Positions 1,824 to 30,552 of a DNA stretch of 32,590 bases are shown here, one piece after another. Under the pieces are notes generated by a model that saw only the letters and a list, made by a program, of their open reading frames with translations, did no database searches and was not told the DNA's origin. This stretch comes from a virus. The stretch spans positions 1-32,590 of the IMG/VR virus record IMGVR_UViG_3300036828_001638; one strand, given 5' to 3'. The stretch's first letter is position 1; each line of letters opens with the position of its first letter. The translations under genes were made by a program, and so were the position numbers.

Positions 1824-3503
1824 TTACTTGCCGATTACGGGCGAATACTTCTGATTGAGGTTGTCGGCACTGCTGCCCGTCGCCGTAATTGCGTTGGCAT
1901 TCGTTGGCGCGCCTGTGTTGCTGTGCGTATGGCTCGCCGTCTGCGTGGCCAGCTGCTTCACCACGTCGAGCGTATCAAGCATCAGCTGCGCCACGTTGAT
2001 GGTACCCGAACCAATCCACACCACAGGCGCAATAATCTGCTGTTGCACTGCCGCCACGCTTTTGCGTATCTGCCCAATCTGCTCGATCAGGTTTTGCCCA
2101 GTGGTGATGGTCTGGCTTTTGCCCACGTCCGTTTTTGCTTCGCCTTCAACCACGATCAGCGCGTTGCCTTTCACGGCCTGGCTGAAACTTCCCGCGCTTA
2201 TCTGCTGGATAGCTCCGGCCATCAGTGATGCAGTACCTAACACCGTTGTTTTGTCCGTGGCTTTGATTGTCGTTTCTCGGCTCACCAGTTCCCGGCTTTC
2301 AGTATCGGCCTTTACCGTTCGCGCCATCGACGTTTCACTAATGGTCTGATCGGTCTGGCGCACCCAGTCGCCCGCGTGCGTGACGCGTTGTGAGACTTCC
2401 GCACGCTGCTGTTGTAGCTGCTCACCCGGTTTCACATCCGGCAAGCTGGTGCCGTCCGGTACGGTCTGGCGAACAAAAGGCTTATCCGGGCGGCCATCGG
2501 TAAACGCCAGCTCTACTTTGGTGCCTTCCGGTGGAAACTGAAACATGCCCGAATCGTTCCCGGCCATAGGAACCGGCAGCGGCACGGCGGAATAAACAGG
2601 GGTTTGTGTGTCCGGGTTGCCGTCTGCGTCAAGCAGCTGCACATCAACAGCGTAACGTGGGCGAAACGGATCGGAGAAATTACCGCTTTTCACTGCCTCA
2701 CTGGGGGCCATCACCCTGGCGAATTTCGGCAGATGCATCCCGGAAGCCAGTTCCGGGTAATGGCTTTCAATCTGGCGCTGGATGGGCGCTTTTTGCAGTG
2801 GCTTCCCGGTGGCCTTGTTTCGTGGCGTCCAGGTGACGGCCATCGTGTCATTGGTCAGATTAACCTTTGTTAGCCGCTCACCGTTCAGCTCCACGCCCGG
2901 CCGCACGCTCTGCACAACGGGCAGCGTCATGCTGTTACCGCCAGCAGCACCCTGGCTAAACTCGGCCGGGATAGCGACAGGCTTACCCGCGAAAAGCGAC
3001 TTTTCCGCGCCACCGACATATAACCCGCCATCAGGCAGCGGGTACCAGATGTAATCGTTAATGCCAAAGGCTTTGCCCAGGTTGTCTAACAGCTGGTAGC
3101 CACTGCCACTGTGCTGAAAATAGGGGATCGGTTTATCGGCGTAAGCTGCATCCGGCACGCTCACCGTAATACCGCTGTGCTCGGTTAGCCAACTGGCCAC
3201 GCTGCGTAAGGTTGGATGCTGGAACGAACAGGGCCAAAGGCGCTCAAACACGCCAGCCAGTTCACGCACAAAGAGGCGCTGAAAGCCATTTTCCGCAGGT
3301 TGCGAGCGCTCAACATAGCCCGTAAACCAGCGTAAGATCAGATCGGTATAGCCCACATCGAGGCGCACCAGTTTTCCGGTGTAGTCGGTTGTCGTTTCCG
3401 CTGTGATGAATCCCCGGCCGCAGCTGTTCAGCTCCAGCACCAGGCTGGCATCAACCAGATGAACTTCATCAGAAGACAAATAAAGGCGTTTAATCGGCTT
3501 CAT
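1824..3503 (-). CDS. Baseplate hub and tail-tip spike protein (VgrG/gpV-like)
   Basis: Product is 559 aa, last gene of the late operon. The N-terminal part (about 1-300) looks like a hub domain of the gp27/gpD type. Around residues 320-345 the FPPEGTKVELAFTDGRPDKP segment is the OB-fold signature of phage and T6SS spikes. Residues 370-490 are Thr/Ser/Gln-rich and suit a triple-stranded beta-helix. Near residue 528 SHTHSNTG gives the His-x-His motif that holds an iron ion at the apex of P2 gpV-type spikes. It would form the central hub and membrane-piercing tip of the contractile tail. In P2 the hub (D) and spike (V) are separate genes, so this reads as a fused version. The start is two bases after the preceding stop, with a GGGGT-like ribosome site. 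Confidence 0.82.
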   Translation of the reverse strand: MKPIKRLYLSSDEVHLVDASLVLELNSCGRGFITAETTTDYTGKLVRLDVGYTDLILRWFTGYVERSQPAENGFQRLFVRELAGVFERLWPCSFQHPTLRSVASWLTEHSGITVSVPDAAYADKPIPYFQHSGSGYQLLDNLGKAFGINDYIWYPLPDGGLYVGGAEKSLFAGKPVAIPAEFSQGAAGGNSMTLPVVQSVRPGVELNGERLTKVNLTNDTMAVTWTPRNKATGKPLQKAPIQRQIESHYPELASGMHLPKFARVMAPSEAVKSGNFSDPFRPRYAVDVQLLDADGNPDTQTPVYSAVPLPVPMAGNDSGMFQFPPEGTKVELAFTDGRPDKPFVRQTVPDGTSLPDVKPGEQLQQQRAEVSQRVTHAGDWVRQTDQTISETSMARTVKADTESRELVSRETTIKATDKTTVLGTASLMAGAIQQISAGSFSQAVKGNALIVVEGEAKTDVGKSQTITTGQNLIEQIGQIRKSVAAVQQQIIAPVVWIGSGTINVAQLMLDTLDVVKQLATQTASHTHSNTGAPTNANAITATGSSADNLNQKYSPVIGK

Positions 3504-9188: not shown

Positions 9189-11152
9189 CCGTGTAACTCC
9201 TGCATTTCCATTAACTGGCCGGGGGTTAACATTTCTTTTGGATAAACGTTTACCGTGCCAATTGTTTTGCTGTTATTTGTGGTGGCTTTTGAATTGCTGC
9301 TAATGGTTTTATTAATTCCGCCACGTTCGATATTTTTTAAATTACCGCCCGTTGATAGCGTGTTACTGGCTGTGGCGGGCTGCGTTTCGCCAGACGTTGA
9401 AATATTCACGCCGGGCAGTTTATTTAATTTTTCTACCATCCAATTCCACGAATCATTAAAGCCGCCTTTGATTGTGTTCCAGATGTTATCGAACATATTC
9501 ATAAAGCCCGAAGCCATGCTGCTTAATGCCTGTGCAGGGGAAAAGCCGGAAAGTAAATCCGTGAATTTTGTCCAGCCGTCACTAATGTATTGCCACACAT
9601 CGGCAAACACATCGCCCAGCCACTTCACCACAGCGGCCACAGCTTTAAACGCCTGCGTGTCCATTACCGCCGTCTTCACTGCATCCCAGTGTTTGATAAG
9701 CAGGTAACAGCCCACGCCCAGCAATGCGATCGCACCGACGATCAACAGAATAGGCCAGCTCATGAAGTTAATCGCCGCCCCGGTCAACACGGCCGCCATA
9801 CGCAGTGCCAGCATCACACCGCGCACCATCTTCATGGTTTTCGCCCACACAAGGTTTGCTTTTGTCACCGCCCAGGTGATGGCCGCATTGATTTTGGTGA
9901 CGGCCGTCAGCGCCTTCCAGACTCCGGTCAGCCCCAGCATGATGAATTTAGACACGCCCATCACGATATTGGCCACCGCTCCGGCTGCGGCGAAACTCAA
10001 CAGCGCCATCGCTGCATAACCGACGTACCGCGCAATATTAGGGAACATCTGCATCCAGCGTGCAAAGGTCTGCCCCATATCGGCCAGACTATTGAGGAGC
10101 GGATACAGGACAGGCATCAGCGTGAGGCCAATCACGGTCTGGATAGCTTTCAGGATAGCCATGAATCTGTCCCACGGTTTCACCAGTTTGGCCGCCATTT
10201 CCTGGGTGCGTTTCAGCCCGTCAGAGCCGCCCAGCTCGGTGATGTTGCGCTGGAGTGTGCCCACGTTGCCGTAAAGCTGCTTGATCACGGCCGAACTGCT
10301 GCCAAAGGCTTCATCTAATTCCGCCTGGGCTTTCAGGTTGCCTTCCAGGCTCTTGCCATATTTTCCCTGCAATTTGATAAGCATTTCCGGCATCGAGAGC
10401 ATTTTCCCGCTGGCATCGGTGAACGACAGGCCCAGTTTTTTTGCGCCCGCCGCCGCACTGGTCATAAAGCCTTCATAAGCCCCACTGGCCCCGGTGCCAA
10501 GCGTGCGATTTAGCTCGCCCAGCACGGCCAGTTGTTCGTTCATGTTCACGCCGAAGTTACTGCCCACACCGCGCGCGCCTTCCATCAGCCCTTTGATAGT
10601 GGCCATTTCCGTGCCGAAGGTTTTGCGCATATACACCATTTTCCCGGCCAGCTGTTCCGCAAACGGAACCTTGCCCAGCCGGGCCGCTTCTGACGAGAAG
10701 TTAGCAGTCATCTGCCCCATAAATTCGGCGGTTTCTGCTGTGGTGGACTTCATGGCAAACGCCAGAGTGTTAGCGACTTTCGTCATTTTCGGCAGCTCGC
10801 CCGCCGTCAGCCCGGCAATGGCTGCGTTAATGGTTTCAGTGGATTTAACAAACTCCACCGCACTGGTGCCAAACATCATGCTGAACGTCAGCGCATCACG
10901 CTGTACCGTTTTGAGTGATGTGTTATCAATCCCGTTTGCGGCAGCATCGTTGAGCGCGTCATACATCTCAATTGCCGGAGATAACGCACCCTTGATAGCC
11001 AGTCCGGTGGCGGCCAGCGCCACAGCACCGCCACCAATCTGTTTAAAAGCAGCCGTTGATTTTTCGGCAAAACCGACAACGTTGTTTTGCGCCTGTTTTA
11101 AAGGGCGCGACAACTTGTCGATAAGGCTTAATGTAAAATCTAATTGTTTCAT
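9185..11152 (-). CDS. Tail tape measure protein
   Basis: Product is 655 aa, the longest tail protein. It has the tape-measure layout: N-terminal coiled-coil start (MKQLDFTLSLIDKLSRPLKQ), Ala/Gly-rich stretches, a conserved TPxAA-type region around 100-300, several hydrophobic segments between about 350 and 490 (LLSFAAAGAVANIVMGV and LLIVGAIALLGVGCYLLI among them), and a Ser/Asn/Thr-rich tail. It sets tail length and is ejected with the DNA. Its ATG overlaps the stop of the frameshifted chaperone (ATGA), the classical chaperone-tape measure arrangement. 655 aa suggests a tail somewhat shorter than P2's if the usual length rule applies. Confidence 0.92.
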   Translation of the reverse strand: MKQLDFTLSLIDKLSRPLKQAQNNVVGFAEKSTAAFKQIGGGAVALAATGLAIKGALSPAIEMYDALNDAAANGIDNTSLKTVQRDALTFSMMFGTSAVEFVKSTETINAAIAGLTAGELPKMTKVANTLAFAMKSTTAETAEFMGQMTANFSSEAARLGKVPFAEQLAGKMVYMRKTFGTEMATIKGLMEGARGVGSNFGVNMNEQLAVLGELNRTLGTGASGAYEGFMTSAAAGAKKLGLSFTDASGKMLSMPEMLIKLQGKYGKSLEGNLKAQAELDEAFGSSSAVIKQLYGNVGTLQRNITELGGSDGLKRTQEMAAKLVKPWDRFMAILKAIQTVIGLTLMPVLYPLLNSLADMGQTFARWMQMFPNIARYVGYAAMALLSFAAAGAVANIVMGVSKFIMLGLTGVWKALTAVTKINAAITWAVTKANLVWAKTMKMVRGVMLALRMAAVLTGAAINFMSWPILLIVGAIALLGVGCYLLIKHWDAVKTAVMDTQAFKAVAAVVKWLGDVFADVWQYISDGWTKFTDLLSGFSPAQALSSMASGFMNMFDNIWNTIKGGFNDSWNWMVEKLNKLPGVNISTSGETQPATASNTLSTGGNLKNIERGGINKTISSNSKATTNNSKTIGTVNVYPKEMLTPGQLMEMQELHG

Positions 11153-18730: not shown

Positions 18731-20581
18731 ATGAGTTCGGATAACACCCCTTTATCGAACAAGCTCGAATTAACACCACCGTTTTTTAATTCTGGTCACG
18801 GCATAATTAAATCTATGGCTAAATACTCAGACGAATTAAAAGGCGTTGCGCGTGCGCTTTATCTGCGCCGCTACACCCCCAAAGAAATTGCATCCGAATT
18901 AAATCTGCCGAATGCGCGGATCGTTTATTACTGGGCGCATAAGGACGGCTGGGCGAATTTGCTCAGTTTTGAAAGCACAGAGGACGCCATTGAGCGCCGT
19001 TACCAGCTGCTGGCCGCGCGTGACGGCAAAACTGATCTCGACCTGAAAGAGATGGATTTGCTGATCGCCCACTCCACTAAACTGCGGGCGCAGAGTAATA
19101 AGCACAAAGAGAAGCTGGCCGCCAGCCAGGGAGCGCGTGAAGCAGCTGCGCCACACGACGATGGATCTCCCGGCAAACGCAAGTACAAGAAAAACGATAT
19201 TTCAGGGCTGACTCAGGAAGATTTTGACACCTGGGCAGATGAAACCCTGTTTGCTTATCAGAAGCACTTGCGCCAGAACATTGGCCAGTTGGTACGCAAC
19301 ATCCTTAAAAGCCGCCAGATTGGGGCGACCTGGTATTTTGCCTTTGAAGCGCTGGAAAATGCGGTACTGACTGGCGATCCGCAAATCTTTCTTTCCGCGT
19401 CAAAAGCTCAGGCGGAGGTGTTCCGCTCGTACATCGTCAACATTGCAGAGCAGAATTTCGGCGTCACGCTTACCGGGAATCCGATCCGACTCAGCAACGG
19501 CGCAGAATTACGCTTTCTGTCCACTAACAAAAACACCGCCCAGTCATACAGCGGCCACCTGTACTGTGATGAATATTTTTGGGTACCGAACTTCGCCCGC
19601 CTGAATGAAGTGGCCAGTGCGATGGCCACACACGACAAATGGCGCACAACATACTTTTCTACGCCATCGGCCAAAACACACCAGGCTTACCCGTTCTGGA
19701 CGGGCGAAGAGTGGAAGCAGGGCAGCAAAAAACGCGCGGCGGTGAAGTTCCCGAAATTCGATGAAATGCGCGACGGCGGGCGACTCTGCCCAGATGGGCA
19801 GTGGCGCTACATCATCACAATGGAAGATGCGATTGCGGGCGGCTTCAACCTGGCCAGCATTGAGAAGCTACGCAACCGCTACAACGACAGTACATTCAAC
19901 ATGCTCTATATGTGCGTTTTCGTTGACAGCAAGGATTCTGTTTTCACCTTTACCGACCTCGAAGGCTGCGCGGTAGAAATTGAGACATGGCAGGATCACG
20001 ACCCCAACGCAAAACGGCCATTTGGCGATCGCCCTGTATGGGGCGGCTTTGACCCGGCCCGCAGTGGTGATTTGTCCTGCTTTGTGATTCTGGCACCGCC
20101 ACAACTGGCCGTTGAAAAATTCCGCGTGCTGGCCGTGTTTAACTGGCGCGGGATGAACTTCCGCTGGCAAGCCAAGCAAATTCAACAGTTGTTCAAGCGC
20201 TACAACTTCACTTATCTGGGCGTGGACGTGACCGGGATCGGCCAGGGTGTCTTTGACAACATTCAACACTTTGCCCTGCGCGTGGCCGTTGCTATTCGTT
20301 ATGACATGAACACCAAAAACCAGCTGGTTTTGAAAGCCGCCGACGTTGTAGAAAGCCAGCGTATCGAGTGGGATAAAAACCTGAAAGAGATCCCGGCCAG
20401 CTTCATGGCCATACGTCGCACGACCACTCAAAGCGGCAACGCCATGACGTTTGTCGCAGACCGCAGTCCCGACACGGGCCACGCAGAAGCATTCTGGGCA
20501 ATCACCCACGCCCTGCACAACGAACCGCTTAACTACGAAAACAAACCTAAATCCCGCTGGGGAGTGAAAAAGGCAGCATGA
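18731..20581 (+). CDS. P: Terminase large subunit P (ATPase/nuclease)
   Basis: Product is 616 aa (P2 gpP is 590 aa). An N-terminal HTH-like part (YSDELKGVARALYLRRYTPKEIA) is followed by a charged linker, the ATPase with a Walker A-like KSRQIGATW near residue 193 and an acidic LYCDEYFW Walker B near 280, and the C-terminal nuclease with GGFDPARSGDLS and YLGVDVTGIGQG. It cuts concatemer or circular DNA at cos and drives it into the prohead. Start choice is uncertain: ATG 18731 and ATG 18815 (MAKYSDELK) both lack a clear ribosome site. Confidence 0.93.
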   Translation: MSSDNTPLSNKLELTPPFFNSGHGIIKSMAKYSDELKGVARALYLRRYTPKEIASELNLPNARIVYYWAHKDGWANLLSFESTEDAIERRYQLLAARDGKTDLDLKEMDLLIAHSTKLRAQSNKHKEKLAASQGAREAAAPHDDGSPGKRKYKKNDISGLTQEDFDTWADETLFAYQKHLRQNIGQLVRNILKSRQIGATWYFAFEALENAVLTGDPQIFLSASKAQAEVFRSYIVNIAEQNFGVTLTGNPIRLSNGAELRFLSTNKNTAQSYSGHLYCDEYFWVPNFARLNEVASAMATHDKWRTTYFSTPSAKTHQAYPFWTGEEWKQGSKKRAAVKFPKFDEMRDGGRLCPDGQWRYIITMEDAIAGGFNLASIEKLRNRYNDSTFNMLYMCVFVDSKDSVFTFTDLEGCAVEIETWQDHDPNAKRPFGDRPVWGGFDPARSGDLSCFVILAPPQLAVEKFRVLAVFNWRGMNFRWQAKQIQQLFKRYNFTYLGVDVTGIGQGVFDNIQHFALRVAVAIRYDMNTKNQLVLKAADVVESQRIEWDKNLKEIPASFMAIRRTTTQSGNAMTFVADRSPDTGHAEAFWAITHALHNEPLNYENKPKSRWGVKKAA

Positions 20582-21630
20582 AAAAGAATAAAAAGTACGT
20601 GAAACGCGAACAGCCCGGCCAGCAAGCCAAAAAAATGAGCATTATTTCGTTCGGCAATCCAGAGCCGATTCTGACTACCGGTACGGATTACCGTGATATC
20701 TGGTATGACAATGCAGCCGATCACTTCACCCAACCCATTGAACGGCTGGCGCTGGCACAGCTGATTAACCTGAACGGCCAGCACGGGGGCATTATTCACG
20801 CCCGTAAAAACATGGTGTTGGCAGATTATCAGGGGGGCGGGCTGACGCATGATGAACTGGAGGCGGCCACATTTGACTATCTGACCTTCGGGGATATTGC
20901 GATTTTGAAGGTGCGCAATGGCTGGGGTGACGTTATCGGGCTGGAACCGTTGCCGGGCCTGTACATGCGCCGCCGCAAAGTGCAGGAAGACGGCGTGAAT
21001 GTACCGGGTGACTTTGTGGTATTGCAGGAAGGTTCCCCGCTGGTTTATCCGGCAGAAGACATTATTTTTTTGAAAATGTACGACCCGCAGCAGCACATTT
21101 ATGGTCTGCCGGACTACATCGGCGGTGTTCACTCCGCATTGTTAAACAGTGAGGCGGTCATTTTTCGCCGTCGCTATTACCACAACGGCGCTCACACTGG
21201 CGGGATTCTCTACACCCGCGATGCGAGCATGACGGATGAAATGGAGGAAGAGATTGAACAGCAGCTGCGTGACAGCAAAGGGATCGGTAACTTCTCCACT
21301 ATCCTGGTGAACATCCCAGGCGGTGACGGTGACGCGATCAAGTTCATTGAAATGGGGGATATTTCGGCCAAAGATGAATTTGCCAACGTGAAGAACATCA
21401 GCGCCCAGGACGTTATGAACGCGCACCGCTTCCCGGCTGGACTGGCGGGCATTGTGCCGCAGAATGCTGCCGGGCTGGGCGACCCTGAAAAAGCAGAAAC
21501 CACCTATAAACGCAATGAGGTGCACCCCATTCAGCGCCGCCTGGCAATGGCCATCAGCAGCGATCCCGAAGTGCCAGCCCGCTTACATCTAAATTTTGCC
21601 GTTGACTCAACGGTTAAGGGTGCGGCGTGA
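20578..21630 (+). CDS. Q: Portal protein Q
   Basis: Product is 350 aa (P2 gpQ is 344 aa) and matches the P2-type portal family: SIISFGNPEPILTTGTDYRD near the N-terminus, DYIGGVHSALLNSEAVIFRR and YYHNGAHTGGILYTRD in the middle, and HRFPAGLAGIVPQNAAGLGD late in the protein. It forms the dodecameric gate at the head vertex. Its start overlaps the P stop as ATGA. Confidence 0.95.
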   Translation: MKKNKKYVKREQPGQQAKKMSIISFGNPEPILTTGTDYRDIWYDNAADHFTQPIERLALAQLINLNGQHGGIIHARKNMVLADYQGGGLTHDELEAATFDYLTFGDIAILKVRNGWGDVIGLEPLPGLYMRRRKVQEDGVNVPGDFVVLQEGSPLVYPAEDIIFLKMYDPQQHIYGLPDYIGGVHSALLNSEAVIFRRRYYHNGAHTGGILYTRDASMTDEMEEEIEQQLRDSKGIGNFSTILVNIPGGDGDAIKFIEMGDISAKDEFANVKNISAQDVMNAHRFPAGLAGIVPQNAAGLGDPEKAETTYKRNEVHPIQRRLAMAISSDPEVPARLHLNFAVDSTVKGAA

Positions 21631-21680
21631 GGCAAAAAAGGTTAAAATCCAGGCATATTTTGACAGCTGGAGAGATGAAC

Positions 21681-21950
21681 ATGCGCGTGCTGAAAATTGA
21701 ATGCCCGGAGTGCGCCTCAAAGGCGGTAATTCGCAAAACCAACCGGAAGCACCGGCAGATCGCAGACATTTACTGTGCCTGTGCTGATGTAGAGTGTGGG
21801 CATACCTTTGTAATGAATTTAACGTTTTCCCACACTCTTAGCCCCAGCGCTAAAACAGGTGACGTGATGGTTCAGGCTCTGCTTAACAACCTGTCACCCG
21901 TACAAAAACAGATGGCACTAGACTTACTGAAAGCTGCACCCGCCGCGTGA
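21681..21950 (+). CDS. ogr: Ogr/Delta-type zinc-finger late gene activator
   Basis: Product is 89 aa from the ATG at 21681, nine bases after GGAG; a longer frame back to the GTG at 21627 overlaps Q and gives a basic non-family extension. Cys8 and Cys11 (CPEC) and Cys34 and Cys39 (C-x4-C) match the zinc-binding pattern of P2 Ogr, P4 Delta and 186 B, which activate phage late promoters by contacting RNA polymerase alpha. It probably switches on the O, P and tail genes. In P2 ogr lies at the other end of the late region near att; here it directly follows Q. Confidence 0.85.
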   Translation: MRVLKIECPECASKAVIRKTNRKHRQIADIYCACADVECGHTFVMNLTFSHTLSPSAKTGDVMVQALLNNLSPVQKQMALDLLKAAPAA

Positions 21951-21968: not shown

Positions 21969-22086
21969 AAACATGCACAACAAATGCTATCTTTTCTTTA
22001 ACTAAGTGATCTTTTGAACCTTTCTGACATAAGATCGACGCAGCTAACTTTTATTCTTTTTCGGAAAGATGCTGGAGGATTGGACA

Positions 22087-23124
22087 ATGTCTTTATCAAA
22101 ACTCGCTGGGAAATTGTTGGAAACAGTAGGTGCAAAAGGAGTCAGTGCATTATTTAAACCTGGACAAATACGCAGAGAGGGCATTGCTAATATTGAAGTT
22201 AAAAGAAAAGAAATGCTTATACTGGCCCAAACAGAAAAAGAAATAGAAGCTATAAAAAATGGCAACGCAATAGTTTCATTAACTAACTTCAGCAATCCAA
22301 AAATAATTTCTTTAGAAGGTGGTGGCGAATACGACAAACTTGGAGAAATGGAACCCTATATTAACCTTGAAAATATCACAAAAAAAATTAGCACACAGTT
22401 AGTTGCAAATGAAATTCAAAAAGAAGTAAACATAGCAAAATCACTTCTTGTTGCTGAGGATATTTTAAACAGCGATCAATCTGATCCTACGAATGAAAAT
22501 ATCGAAGATGATTGGTTAATAAGATGGAGAGATAGTGCGGCTACAAGCTCTTCAGAAAAACTTCAAGATTTATGGGGCCGAGTTCTGGCAGGAGAACTTA
22601 AGACACCTGGAAAATATTCATTGCGAACTATAGATTTTATAAAAAACCTGACACAAAAAGAAGCTGAAAAAATACAAAAAATATTTTCATTTGTTATGTT
22701 TGGACGAATAATAAAAGCCAAATCGATGGCTGATGGATTTGAAAATGAATATTTAGATAATGAATTGACCTTCAATTTTTTATCTGAGTTGCAATCACTT
22801 GGAGTTCTCGCTGGTGTGGAGTCCATGGGATTATCAACAAAATTCAAATCAAATGATGATAAAGAATACTCATTTCATGACATTTATAATGACAAAGTTA
22901 TTCATATTACTCATGAGGATTCAACAAAAATTCTAAAATTCAATGTGGTAATCCTTACACCATTAGGTCATGAATTACGTTCTTTATGTCCAGTAACTAT
23001 TGATATAAAATACATTAACTACGTAATTGAAATAATTAAAAAACAAGATTTCAAAGTCACAATAGGCCAAAAAATAATTCTTAGTGATGGAACATTAGCT
23101 TCTAGAAATAGGGTAGAAGTTTAA
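22087..23124 (+). CDS. DUF2806 protein, AT-rich phage cargo gene
   Basis: Product is 345 aa from the ATG at 22087, which has GGAGG eight bases upstream (an in-frame ATG at 22069 is less likely). The C-terminal two-thirds fit DUF2806, a family of unknown function seen in bacteria and prophages, including DDWLIRWRDSAATSSSE and LQDLWGRVLAGELKTPG (around 145-180). Residues 30-75 are charged helix. No enzyme motif, signal peptide or membrane segment is visible. The gene is far richer in A+T than the Q, ogr and A genes around it and uses many rare AT-ending codons (AGA, ATA, TTA). It occupies the locus between Q and A where P2 carries tin and old, so a role in lysogenic conversion or phage exclusion is a reasonable but untested inference. 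Confidence 0.75.
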   Translation: MSLSKLAGKLLETVGAKGVSALFKPGQIRREGIANIEVKRKEMLILAQTEKEIEAIKNGNAIVSLTNFSNPKIISLEGGGEYDKLGEMEPYINLENITKKISTQLVANEIQKEVNIAKSLLVAEDILNSDQSDPTNENIEDDWLIRWRDSAATSSSEKLQDLWGRVLAGELKTPGKYSLRTIDFIKNLTQKEAEKIQKIFSFVMFGRIIKAKSMADGFENEYLDNELTFNFLSELQSLGVLAGVESMGLSTKFKSNDDKEYSFHDIYNDKVIHITHEDSTKILKFNVVILTPLGHELRSLCPVTIDIKYINYVIEIIKKQDFKVTIGQKIILSDGTLASRNRVEV

Positions 23125-23220: not shown

Positions 23221-23403
23221 CTAAACCCCATGTTTCAGTGAGTCCGGGGCACCTTTTCGAATTTCTTTTCTCAATTCCTCCGTAATCTCACCAATCCATA
23301 TCAAGGCCATTGTTTTATCTTTTGTTGAAAAATCATCAAAATGGGAAATTTTTGCTAGTAATTCAATGCGTTCAAGCCTAGCTGACGCCTCCAACAAATC
23401 CAT
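23221..23403 (-). CDS. Small SOS-linked phage protein of unknown function
   Basis: Product is 60 aa from the ATG at 23403 with a GGGGG ribosome site about four bases upstream; a longer frame to 23499 crosses the LexA box and gives a Cys/Phe-rich extension that is not credible. The protein is helical and charged (MDLLEASARLERIELLAKIS, then KTMALIWIGEITEELRKEI), without membrane or catalytic motifs. A near-perfect LexA box lies 23 bases before the ATG, so it should be induced by DNA damage. It sits downstream of A, in the region where 186 has its LexA-controlled tum antirepressor gene. A role in prophage induction is inferred from this; no similarity to Tum is claimed. Confidence 0.7.
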   Translation of the reverse strand: MDLLEASARLERIELLAKISHFDDFSTKDKTMALIWIGEITEELRKEIRKGAPDSLKHGV

Positions 23404-23425
23404 GCAACCCCCACAAACAAACAAA

Positions 23426-23445
23426 TACTGTACAAACATACAGTA
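23426..23445 (-). promoter_or_regulatory. LexA (SOS) box
   Basis: TACTGTACAAACATACAGTA is a 20-base site with both CTGT and ACAG arms spaced by eight bases and with the flanking TA pairs of the enterobacterial LexA consensus. It lies 23 bases upstream of the small gene at 23221-23403 and inside its expected promoter. The A gene ends 76 bases to the right, so the box can control only the small gene in this direction. Confidence 0.88.
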
Positions 23446-23520
23446 AAAGTTTAAAGCACAAATAGAGAAATTGAAACAACCATTTAGGATGTTTCTCACA
23501 GTAGTAATACGGAAGTGTGA

Positions 23521-25536
23521 TCACGACCAGCCCGGCCAAAGCTCATCTATTGGCTCGCTTCGCTTCTCCTGCAACCTTCCATCCTTGAAAATCAGCGCTG
23601 ATTGGCCAAATACCAGCCCGCTGCCACGCATCAAAATGGCCACCTCTTCATCAGTACCTTCAAAACCGCGATGTTTAAGATCCAGTTTTAACCGCCTCCG
23701 GGTTCCTCCCTCCGTACAGTTATTGACAGAACTCCTAGGCGGCGCGTTCGCGCCGCTAACTGCAACCGCCTGATCGGCGGTCAACTTCGGCACAATTTTC
23801 CATTGCGTGAGTCGCGTTAAGATCGGGGTATCTATTCCAACGGCGGGAGAGAAAACCCCCTTAACCCGTATCACTTCCTCACCGTAAACATTGAAGTCGG
23901 TGGCGGTTTCGTACCAGGTGCGGGCAATCAGTTCATCCCTTCTCACAAACGGGCCGCCCTGCTCATTGATGTACCTTGCCCAGTCGCCGTTATCGGCTGC
24001 ATCATGAACAGCAGCAAATTCCACGCTTAAACCCATAGCCGTATCGTGATCGGCCATCCGGCGCAATTCACGCCATACAGTGACAGGAGCGCCACCGACA
24101 AACTGAAACTGGCGGATGCGCCAGCAGGATGACCAGGCAGCCGCTGCGGCTGCTGCTTCTTTCATCGGCTTGCCGCTTTCGTCGTCCAGCTCTTCGTCCA
24201 GTGCGTAACCGTCAATATTTTTGGAAATGTATTTGGCCACATAGCCGGTAGCTGACCCTTTTTCCGGATCGATGCTTTCAGCATGGAAACGTGCCTTTCT
24301 CGCTTTATCGGTGATCAGCTCGGCGTGGTCTTCATTCATCGCGTAATCACGCAAAATGCCGCGCACCTGCTCAACTTCTTCAGGACGCATAAACAGCAAC
24401 ATGTGCCAGTGCGGGGTACCATCGTGATGCGGTTCGGCAACCCGGATCCCGAATACGCGTAGATCGTTACGGTGCAGCTTTGCCCGGATGCGCCCCCAAA
24501 CTTTACTCAAATAGCCTTGTGTATCGGCCGGACTGCTGCCATCCCATTTGCGGTTACGATGCCCGTGAATAGTGGTTGCGTGATATTTGGATGGGGCGGT
24601 GATGGTGTAGAACTCCCCTACATAGCCCAGCTCGTTGCAGACATTTTCAAAACCGCGTATACGCACCATCATTTCAGTGCGCCGAATGGCCGGGTTGGCC
24701 ACGCTGCCCCAGTATTTATCAATCAGGCTGATCCGGTTGCCGAATTCGTCTTCCAGCTCCATTGACTTAAGAAACTCACGCGTCCGGCGCTTTTGTTCCT
24801 TCCAGTCACGAATAAGCGCCCGGCTGGCGTATGTGCTGGTTTTTTTGCTGACATTATTCAGGGCGATGTGCAGATGTTCGCGCCACTCTGTTGCGTGGCG
24901 GCGTAAGCGTCTGGCCCACCATTGGTCAGACATCATGCGGGAAAGAGCGGCGGCTGCTTGCGGCTCGTCAAAGCAACGGCGCATTAGCTTTTCAAAATCT
25001 GGAGCGGTCTGGCGGAATGCCTGCGTGATAGTCGAGGCGCGAATATAGAGCGCGTGCAGCAATTTGAGCGCCCCGGCGTCGGGCATCTGATCATTGATAC
25101 TGGTCAGTTCCGCCGTGATGAACGTCGCAACATCCTGCGCCATCAGGTCAATATCTTCTTTCGACATATCAGGAAGGTGGTTGAAGCGATGCATAAGACG
25201 GACGGTGTCGGCGGTCATTGTGCCGATGTTGTACCGTTCAGAAACGAGGCTGACGCGGGGCCAGATACGTTCTAAAAATGTTTTGGCAAGAAAGGCGTTT
25301 GCGCGTTTTAATCCCTGCGCTTTCTCCAGTTTGTTGGCCGTAGCGTTTACCGACATACGAACAATCACAGACTGCTTTTGCAGCAAATCCTGTGCGCACT
25401 CTAACGCCGCATTTTCTCGATCACGGCGGTGTAATTCTTCGTATGTGGGCACCGGGCTTTCGATGGCCTGGAGCGGGGCATTCCATGAATAAGCCCATGG
25501 TTTGATTGCGGTTGCGCTTTCCGATAGGTTAGACAT
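23521..25536 (-). CDS. A: Replication initiation endonuclease A (HUH family)
   Basis: Product is 671 aa from the ATG at 25536 (P2 gpA is 761 aa), chosen for the GGGAGGGGG ribosome site just before it; a GTG at 25563 would add nine residues. It is the rolling-circle initiator: the metal-binding HxH pair appears in GTPHWHMLLF near residue 375 and the paired tyrosines in YVAKYISKNIDG near 430, the catalytic arrangement of P2 gpA. It nicks its own origin, which in P2 lies inside the A gene, to start replication with host Rep. It is the last large gene of the leftward early operon. Confidence 0.93.
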   Translation of the reverse strand: MSNLSESATAIKPWAYSWNAPLQAIESPVPTYEELHRRDRENAALECAQDLLQKQSVIVRMSVNATANKLEKAQGLKRANAFLAKTFLERIWPRVSLVSERYNIGTMTADTVRLMHRFNHLPDMSKEDIDLMAQDVATFITAELTSINDQMPDAGALKLLHALYIRASTITQAFRQTAPDFEKLMRRCFDEPQAAAALSRMMSDQWWARRLRRHATEWREHLHIALNNVSKKTSTYASRALIRDWKEQKRRTREFLKSMELEDEFGNRISLIDKYWGSVANPAIRRTEMMVRIRGFENVCNELGYVGEFYTITAPSKYHATTIHGHRNRKWDGSSPADTQGYLSKVWGRIRAKLHRNDLRVFGIRVAEPHHDGTPHWHMLLFMRPEEVEQVRGILRDYAMNEDHAELITDKARKARFHAESIDPEKGSATGYVAKYISKNIDGYALDEELDDESGKPMKEAAAAAAAWSSCWRIRQFQFVGGAPVTVWRELRRMADHDTAMGLSVEFAAVHDAADNGDWARYINEQGGPFVRRDELIARTWYETATDFNVYGEEVIRVKGVFSPAVGIDTPILTRLTQWKIVPKLTADQAVAVSGANAPPRSSVNNCTEGGTRRRLKLDLKHRGFEGTDEEVAILMRGSGLVFGQSALIFKDGRLQEKRSEPIDELWPGWS

Positions 25537-25564
25537 TCCCCCTCCCATCAGTAAGGAAAACACG

Positions 25565-28493: not shown

Positions 28494-28997
28494 TCACATC
28501 AAGCCAGTGGCGTTAGTCGTCACAATATCGACGGCGGCCGCCAGAATTGGCGCGGAACTGACCCGGCTTTCTACGGTGTAAGCCAGAACGGAAAGGCAGC
28601 GAATCGCGTCACGAGCACGATCTAAGATTTGATTTCGACGGGCGGAGGTCATGCACTCGGTTGATACGGCTTGCCCAGCAATCGCGCCTATATCGGCGGT
28701 GGCGCTCAAGGCACACAGCTGCATGTTTCCCGGCGTGGCGTTGTTCACTGGTACCGAAGGTAAGCAGTTGATTTGGCTTAACAGCCCATCAAGCAAGCGT
28801 GCATCTTCGGTGTAATCGGTGATAGCCAGTAGTTCGCTGCAATTAAGGTGATGCGGCTGATCCGGATTCAACTTATTGCGGAGAACCTGCGGACGTATAC
28901 CAACGGCAGCGGCCACATCTTCAAGATTGTGAACCTGCGCGAAGGCTCGGCAAGCTGCATCAAAATGTGCATGTTTAGAAGTCTGATAATCAAACAT
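28494..28997 (-). CDS. cII: CII-type regulatory protein (186 family)
   Basis: Product is 167 aa and closely follows 186 CII: MFDYQTSKHAHFDAACRAFA, then an HTH (VHNLEDVAAAVGIRPQVLRN), KLNPDQPHHL and LLDGLLSQINCLPSVPVN. In 186 CII activates a promoter that drives cI for establishment of lysogeny. It is unrelated to lambda CII in fold. It is the second gene of the leftward early operon, as in 186. Confidence 0.92.
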   Translation of the reverse strand: MFDYQTSKHAHFDAACRAFAQVHNLEDVAAAVGIRPQVLRNKLNPDQPHHLNCSELLAITDYTEDARLLDGLLSQINCLPSVPVNNATPGNMQLCALSATADIGAIAGQAVSTECMTSARRNQILDRARDAIRCLSVLAYTVESRVSSAPILAAAVDIVTTNATGLM

Positions 28998-29027: not shown

Positions 29028-29249
29028 TTACGCATTAAGCGCAATACTACATTCGCTTAACGCCATCACGGTTAAGGCGGCCATATTGACTTCAACCAGC
29101 CCTTTTTTTTGCGCACCCTTGGGTTTTATTGGCAACTTTCCGTATGAGATCAAATTATTAGCAGTGCTTTTTGATATGCCAGTACGGCGGCAATACTCAT
29201 CAAGCGGGAGGTATGGATCGGGGATCACGATTGTAATGTTAGGTCGCAT
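29028..29249 (-). CDS. Cox/Apl-like excisionase and early repressor
   Basis: Product is 73 aa from the ATG at 29249, with AGGAG nine bases upstream; a GTG seven codons earlier would place the ribosome site inside the gene. The protein has a winged-helix/HTH pattern: YLPLDEYCRRTGISKSTANN, then LISYGKLPIKPKG. Apl (186) and Cox (P2) are first genes of the lytic operon, act as excision factors with Int and repress the lysogenic promoter. The position supports the same dual role. Confidence 0.82.
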   Translation of the reverse strand: MRPNITIVIPDPYLPLDEYCRRTGISKSTANNLISYGKLPIKPKGAQKKGLVEVNMAALTVMALSECSIALNA

Positions 29250-29268
29250 AAGGCAAACTCCTGTTTTC

Positions 29269-29288
29269 ACCGATACACCAATATCGGT
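29269..29288. promoter_or_regulatory. Inverted repeat in the lysogeny switch, operator candidate
   Basis: ACCGAT (29269-29274) and ATCGGT (29283-29288) form a 6-8-6 dyad just upstream of the cox/apl start, within the expected 5' leader of the lytic transcript. A related half-site AATCGG occurs at 29347-29352. It could bind CI or Cox/Apl. Confidence 0.45.
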
Positions 29289-29363: not shown

Positions 29364-29387
29364 ATTGCGCATTTTCTTGTGATTTAC

Positions 29388-29969
29388 ATGGCAACTTTCA
29401 AACTTGATTTAGGTGTTGATAGCGCCCCCGTTCTGGATCGCGTCATAGAAGCCTATGGGTTTACATCCAAGCTAATGCTTGCCCAACATCTTAATATCGC
29501 AGCAAGTAGCCTTTCCTCCCGTTATAAACGCGGCGGATTTCCGTCAGATATTGCCGTGAGGTGTGTTGCTGAAACAGGTGCAAATCTTGAATGGTTAGCA
29601 ACTGGTGAAGGCAAGAAGTTCAATGGTGAAGAACTTGATATTCTGAAATTGCCACGCAAAAAAATCGTCGATGGCCAGCTTTATGATTCTGGCGTGTACA
29701 TGCTGGACAAGGTTTCTTTTTTACCTGGCATACCCTTGCCATCAGCACCTATGTGCGTTTTGGAGGGTAATACCCAATTTATCGTTGATACCACCTTCAA
29801 CGAGGTTTATGACGATCAATGGTTAGTTGATATTGAAGGTAAAGCTAGCATTCGTACCCTTACTCGCATACCAATCAAAAAAGTTAGAGTTAGCGGTGTA
29901 GGAATGGCTTTCGACTGTTCAATTGAAGATATAAAAGTTCTTGGCAGAGTTGTGTTAACCATAAAATAA
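29388..29969 (+). CDS. cI: CI repressor (186 family)
   Basis: Product is 193 aa from ATG 29388, matching 186 CI (192 aa). The N-terminal HTH is VLDRVIEAYGFTSKLMLAQHLNIAASSLSSRY-like, with ETGANLEWLATGEG (about 57-71); the C-terminal oligomerisation domain shows DDQWLVDIEGKASIRTLTRI and SIEDIKVLGRVV. 186 CI has no LexA-type self-cleavage, and no Ala-Gly cleavage site is evident here, so induction probably needs an antirepressor, in keeping with the SOS-linked gene at 23221-23403. No clear ribosome site precedes the ATG; a GTG at 29379 adds three residues. It heads the lysogeny operon cI, PH-SHOCT, int. Confidence 0.92.
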   Translation: MATFKLDLGVDSAPVLDRVIEAYGFTSKLMLAQHLNIAASSLSSRYKRGGFPSDIAVRCVAETGANLEWLATGEGKKFNGEELDILKLPRKKIVDGQLYDSGVYMLDKVSFLPGIPLPSAPMCVLEGNTQFIVDTTFNEVYDDQWLVDIEGKASIRTLTRIPIKKVRVSGVGMAFDCSIEDIKVLGRVVLTIK

Positions 29970-29985
29970 ACATAAGGATTTGAAG

Positions 29986-30552
29986 ATGATTGACTACAAA
30001 ACAGCATCAAAAGAGCAGTTGAAAGCAGAGATGAAGCGCTTAGCCTCTGCGGTTTCTGACTCTCCCTTTGGTACAAAAAAGGAATTCTTTCACCTTCCAG
30101 AAATTTTAAACTCCGGTGAACAACCGTTAGCTATTGCTAGCGGGATGATGGACGGCAACACATGGCTTATTACGCTCACAAATAAACGAGTGATATTCCT
30201 TGATAAGGGTATGATTTTTGGAGTTAAACAGGTCGATATTAATCTCAACAATATTGTGAGCGTTGGCGGTAAAACTGGACTTCTCTTGGGTGAAATTACG
30301 ATTTCAACCAGCGGCCAAAACTACACCATTAAAAATGTAATGAAGGGATCGGTAATTCCTTTCACTAATTTAGTGAATGAGACAAGAAACACCTTATCTC
30401 CCGCAGCCCAGCCGCACCAAGAACCAACTAAAGCTGCTCAATCTTTTGACGAGCAAATGTCAAAAATTGAGCGAATAGCAGATATGAAAGAAGAAGGGAT
30501 ACTGACTGAAGAGGAATTTCAGCAGCAGAAACAACGCATTCTTAATGGTTAA
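29986..30552 (+). CDS. PH-like domain plus SHOCT protein, lysogeny-operon cargo
   Basis: Product is 188 aa from ATG 29986, seven bases after AAGGA. Residues 30-125 look like a bacterial PH domain: a beta series with GEQPLAIASGMMDGNTWLIT, LTNKRVIFLDKGMIFG, and a final NYTIKNVMKGSVIPF followed by a helix. A polar linker (about 130-155) leads to a C-terminal SHOCT motif (ADMKEEGILTEEEFQQQKQRIL), a short helical hairpin seen on many soluble and membrane proteins. No enzyme motif is visible. It lies 16 bases after cI and three before int, so it is likely expressed in the lysogen. Role unknown; superinfection exclusion or host modification is a hypothesis. Confidence 0.75.
   Translation: MIDYKTASKEQLKAEMKRLASAVSDSPFGTKKEFFHLPEILNSGEQPLAIASGMMDGNTWLITLTNKRVIFLDKGMIFGVKQVDINLNNIVSVGGKTGLLLGEITISTSGQNYTIKNVMKGSVIPFTNLVNETRNTLSPAAQPHQEPTKAAQSFDEQMSKIERIADMKEEGILTEEEFQQQKQRILNG

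Follow-up and report, generated by a model that had tools for sequence, protein, structure and literature searches.

A LexA-boxed stand-alone tumA gene as the probable antirepressor gene of a 186-type prophage

The window (the whole 32,590 nucleotide stretch of the viral record IMGVR_UViG_3300036828_001638 analysed here) contains a 60-aa ORF whose translation is MDLLEASARLERIELLAKISHFDDFSTKDKTMALIWIGEITEELRKEIRKGAPDSLKHGV. It lies between gpA and the cos/portal end and is transcribed with gpA, the order being gpA (minus), the ORF (minus), a convergent gene encoding a DUF2806 protein and then the portal gene (Table 1). This is where 186 carries tum, after A and before cos and portal, so the gpA and portal neighbours bear out an earlier note on this DNA, made from the sequence alone, which had placed the ORF in a tum-like locus.

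Table 1. Features of the tum locus and of the immunity switch in the window
Feature	Position	Strand	Evidence
Portal (gpQ), other side of the tum locus	20578..21630	+	Homology
tumA, 60-aa stand-alone homologue of the 186 Tum N-terminal (antirepressor) domain	23221..23403	-	Homology, dN/dS, AF2
G-rich ribosome-binding-like run GGGGG before the tumA ATG	23408..23412	-	Sequence
Predicted LexA box TACTGTATGTTTGTACAGTA	23426..23445	-	Sequence match; kept in relatives
Inferred promoter, 186 p95 arrangement	23440..23469	-	Alignment with relatives and 186
gpA (replication protein), whose position upstream fixes the tum locus	23521..25563	-	Pfam
cII	28494..28997	-	Pfam/PHROG
apl/cox homologue (in 186, the first gene of the lytic operon)	29028..29270	-	phrog_575, E 5.6e-29
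cI, immunity repressor of the 186 type lacking a peptidase domain; presumed TumA target	29379..29969	+	Pfam, phmmer

The DUF2806 gene (22069-23124, plus strand; 351 aa, Pfam E 2e-26) occupies the cargo position where P2 has tin/old; its product belongs to no PHROG or PADLOC family, and a search of 50,697 phage records gave no relative. Directly after the portal gene is a 107-aa phrog_603 'transcriptional regulator' (21627-21950, plus strand), and ESSI-2 and YenM324 have a regulator-annotated gene at the corresponding place.

The switch region is of the 186 type, with cI, an apl/cox homologue and cII. The window CI matches the crystal structure of 186 CI (2fjr) over its full length (phmmer E 1e-37, residues 11-192) and consists of the CI_repr (Phage_CI_repr) and CI_C (Phage_CI_C) domains. 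Pfam finds in it no S24/LexA-like peptidase domain, as lambda-type induction would need, and the phage thus has the non-peptidase CI expected of one induced through TumA; the earlier note's claim that CI is of the 186 type was correct. Between cI and int there is a 190-aa phrog_2700 gene (function not known; 29980-30552, plus strand), possibly a lysogenic conversion gene.

The predicted LexA box upstream of the ORF agrees with the consensus at 12/12 positions in both conserved arms and is the sole exact match in the window, where a scan allowing up to two mismatches gave two matches against 0.51 expected by shuffling. The earlier note had reported a near-consensus box 23 bases before the ORF; the close upstream box stands, with 22 nt between it and the ATG. 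The candidate -10 element, TACTGT, is the left arm of the box and has a -35-like TTCTCT 18 nt upstream. The annotated p95 promoter of 186 is built in the same way, with the left arm of its LexA box as the -10 (TACTGT) and TTCACA 18 nt upstream, and a TTCACA-like element 17-18 nt from TACTGT is kept in many relatives of the window gene. A generic promoter scan of the window missed this promoter, and the p95-like layout is visible only by alignment with the relatives and with 186. The predicted LexA box lies over this candidate promoter, as it should for tumA.

Relatives of the 60-aa protein are encoded at 56 loci in IMG/VR. A LexA box (at least 10/12 arm positions) is found 19-27 nt before the start codon in 39 of the 40 distinct homologues that have upstream sequence, whereas the 1130 other ORFs in the same loci (ATG start, 60 aa or longer) include none with a box of this kind within 60 nt. 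LexA-box-linked homologues in other P2-like prophages, which the earlier note had suggested looking for, are thus present. The median dN/dS among the relatives is 0.14, indicating purifying selection. Because the box, its spacing and the protein sequence are all conserved, the ORF is a real gene. That an untranslated ORF had come to lie beside a LexA box by chance would account for its small size and for nothing else; the counts and the selection already contradict it, and we give it practically no weight.

The one record with a TumA gene lacking the box, L392 (G021; TumA at about 10119-10340, plus strand), also has a tandem pair of cI genes (1067-1666 and 1927-2571, minus strand) that differ in their HTH halves but are near-identical in their C-terminal halves.

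A profile (A2) built from the window protein and its close relatives only was compared with known phage genomes. Tum was its sole match in 186 (E 6.9e-7), and single matches were found in Fels-2 (STM2728, 2.1e-11), ENT90 (1.1e-6), ESSI-2 (9.3e-12) and YenM324 (1.9e-13), those in 186, Fels-2 and ENT90 falling inside tum or an annotated tum-locus gene. There was no match in P2, and none in PsP3, where TumA has diverged too far for A2 to find it. The PHROG families form a second bridge: the window protein is a member of phrog_698 (E 6e-20) and also matches phrog_8554 (1.8e-10), and residues 1-61 of 186 Tum match phrog_1993 (1.4e-22), phrog_8554 (1.4e-11) and phrog_698 (2.7e-5). The homology spans 186 Tum residues ~1-50. 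Since A2 finds Tum alone in 186, PHROGs are shared and tum is divided into tumA and a DinI-like tumB in PsP3 and likewise in Fels-2, we identify the window gene with high confidence, by homology and context, as a stand-alone tumA, a member of a known family that corresponds to the N-terminal antirepressor half of Tum. The suggestion that the ORF belonged to no known family, and might be a new minimal antirepressor, has been dropped; the protein shares PHROGs with 186 Tum, and PsP3 (tumA) and Fels-2 (STM2728) already provide examples of this half as a gene of its own.

Searches of Pfam, NCBIfam and PADLOC with the 60-aa protein gave no match, and a PDB sequence profile search gave no significant relative. 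AF2 modelling of the protein alone, also proposed in the earlier note, predicts a two-helix hairpin (residues 3-21 and 27-51, pLDDT 87.9), with the conserved stretches ERIELLAK and ALxWIGE on one helix each. The best Foldseek match to the model has a non-significant E of 0.46, the hairpin resembling many unrelated proteins.

Phrog_698, 8554 and 1993 are listed as being of unknown function; their correspondence to the antirepressor half of Tum clears this annotation gap. TumA is present but unannotated in the public records of ESSI-2 (L002) and YenM324 (L004), and the RefSeq record of 186 labels the entire Tum as DinI protein.

The window TumA is small because it lacks the DinI-like second half. 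Its reading frame stops after 60 residues and what follows is a convergent gene, so that there is neither a fused DinI domain, as in full-length 186-type Tum, nor a tumB. The DinI domain (PF06183) is absent from the window, and none was found in the examined neighbourhoods of all 56 relatives. With no DinI-like domain or gene, the RecA-modulating function of this half is absent from the window phage.

The missing DinI half could also mean that the gene is a decayed, non-working remnant of tum, induction then coming from elsewhere or not occurring, and the C-terminal tail after residue ~50, which is unlike the tails of most relatives, would fit such decay. The conserved core is intact, however, the whole clade shares the short form, the box and the strong purifying selection, and in ENT90, too, the short form stands alone. 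We therefore think it very improbable that the gene is a remnant.

To look at TumA and CI together, 50 near-full-length P2-like records were selected by portal rather than by TumA. The first search found TumA in 40, the CI C-terminal domain in 39 and both in 37. Judging from coordinates and the 5-6 kb spacing seen elsewhere, the contigs of the three TumA-only records (G040, G042 and G044) stop short of the cI region. The two CI-only records (G048 and G050) each have a LexA-boxed 63-aa ORF with a weak match to the TumA profile (E 2e-4 to 4e-4), evidently a divergent TumA, and because of these two a TumA-like gene accompanies the 186-type CI in 39/39 records. TumA and the 186-type CI were both missing from all eight P2 records in the set, which are near-identical and count as about one lineage. 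The association of TumA with the 186-type CI is thus near-obligate. Among these records, 38 TumA genes have upstream DNA, and 37 of them have the LexA box (at least 10/12); one record holds two prophages. DinI occurs in six of the 50 records, all among the 40 with TumA and in five of the six directly behind it; this low share (6/40 TumA-bearing records) points to DinI as an attachment that TumA can dispense with.

There is a new hint, suggestive only, that TumA divergence follows the DNA-binding domain of CI. In Mantel tests, which are liberal on related sequences, TumA distance is correlated with CI distance after correction for portal distance (partial r 0.53, p 0.001; 38 pairs after dereplication), and with distance in the CI N-terminal domain once the portal and the C-terminal domain have been controlled for (r 0.47, p 0.001, 39 pairs; r 0.35, p 0.013 for the 25 nearest). 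The C-terminal domain, which is near saturation, loses its own correlation (0.08 and -0.06). It is for these two reasons, liberal tests and near saturation, that we do not press the hint further.

Additionally, some records have nucleotide-identical tumA genes with strongly different cI genes (G020, G022, G023 and G024; also G011 and G016). The flanks of these tumA genes are about 97-98% identical, and the accompanying CIs differ at 54-68% of positions, with 24-37% identity in the C-terminal domain against 41-60% in the N-terminal domain. This suggests that the immunity gene has been swapped repeatedly. It also means that either TumA reads a conserved feature of CI or more than CI is involved. 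We can put forward only tentatively that TumA recognizes a conserved feature of the DNA-binding half of CI, one TumA serving many CI immunity types. If so, the TumA of a damaged cell could induce several heteroimmune P2-like prophages together, and cI could be swapped between phages without a change of tumA.

Identical tumA genes beside very different CIs are also what would be expected were CI not the target. TumA would then share the ancestry of the Tum N-domain but serve another SOS-timed function, for example a host-directed one acting on replication, division or RecA; phage SOS operons often include other genes. Against this, the pairing with 186-type CI is near-obligate and TumA is absent where the repressor is the P2-type C, TumA distance tracks CI distance even after the portal correction, and in PsP3 it is the homologous TumA half that carries the antirepressor activity (Lemire et al.; the key statement is a personal communication). 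A function other than antirepression is thus unlikely.

Taken together, the data make it very probable that the window gene is a stand-alone tumA that is controlled by LexA, inactivates the non-cleavable 186-type CI and so induces the prophage. The Tum N-terminal homology and the context of locus and CI support as likely the antirepressor role that had been suggested for the gene. In 186, the LexA-repressed p95-tum mediates induction, Tum being the inhibitor of CI (PMC7708051). By analogy, LexA bound at the tumA promoter would keep tumA silent in the lysogen. After DNA damage, RecA-stimulated cleavage of LexA would allow the 60-aa helical-hairpin TumA to be made; TumA would bind CI, which would no longer hold the lytic promoter, and the lytic operon would start. 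At the end of the SOS response LexA would switch tumA off again. LexA binding, TumA-CI binding and prophage release in the window phage are here inferred from 186 and PsP3. The sets of identical TumA with different CI make prophage cross-induction testable, and the 60-aa TumA offers a compact object for locating the antirepressor contact on 186 CI.

The closest known system is 186 Tum (gene 95, p95), which resembles the window gene in its locus, the overlap of -10 and LexA box, the type of CI and the homologous first ~50 residues; the two LexA boxes are identical at 19/20 positions. In contrast to the single 60-aa window gene without DinI, 186 Tum is longer, at 146 aa, carries a DinI-like domain at its C-terminus and has orf97 behind it. 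In PsP3 the antirepressor half is likewise encoded on its own at this locus, by the 60-aa TumA (NP_958094), but this protein is only 14% identical to the window TumA, shares phrog_1993 with Tum and connects to the window family only by way of that PHROG and 186 Tum, and is followed by the DinI-like tumB that the window lacks. Fels-2 STM2728 (62 aa) is 31% identical to the window TumA over the alignment and is also a separate small gene with LexA-like boxes upstream, although a DinI family gene follows it and none does so in the window. The arrangement in ENT90 is that of the window: its tum locus encodes a TumA (YP_007238040, 'putative prophage protein') on its own, not followed by DinI; this protein shares 61% identity with the N-domain of 186 Tum and is closer to 186 than to the window TumA. 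Finally, the Gifsy proteins GfoA and GftA are small LexA-controlled antirepressors acting on a non-cleaved repressor (PMC3121763), and thus work as we propose for the window TumA; they differ in belonging to lambdoid phages and in their operon order, dinI-antirepressor-irsA.
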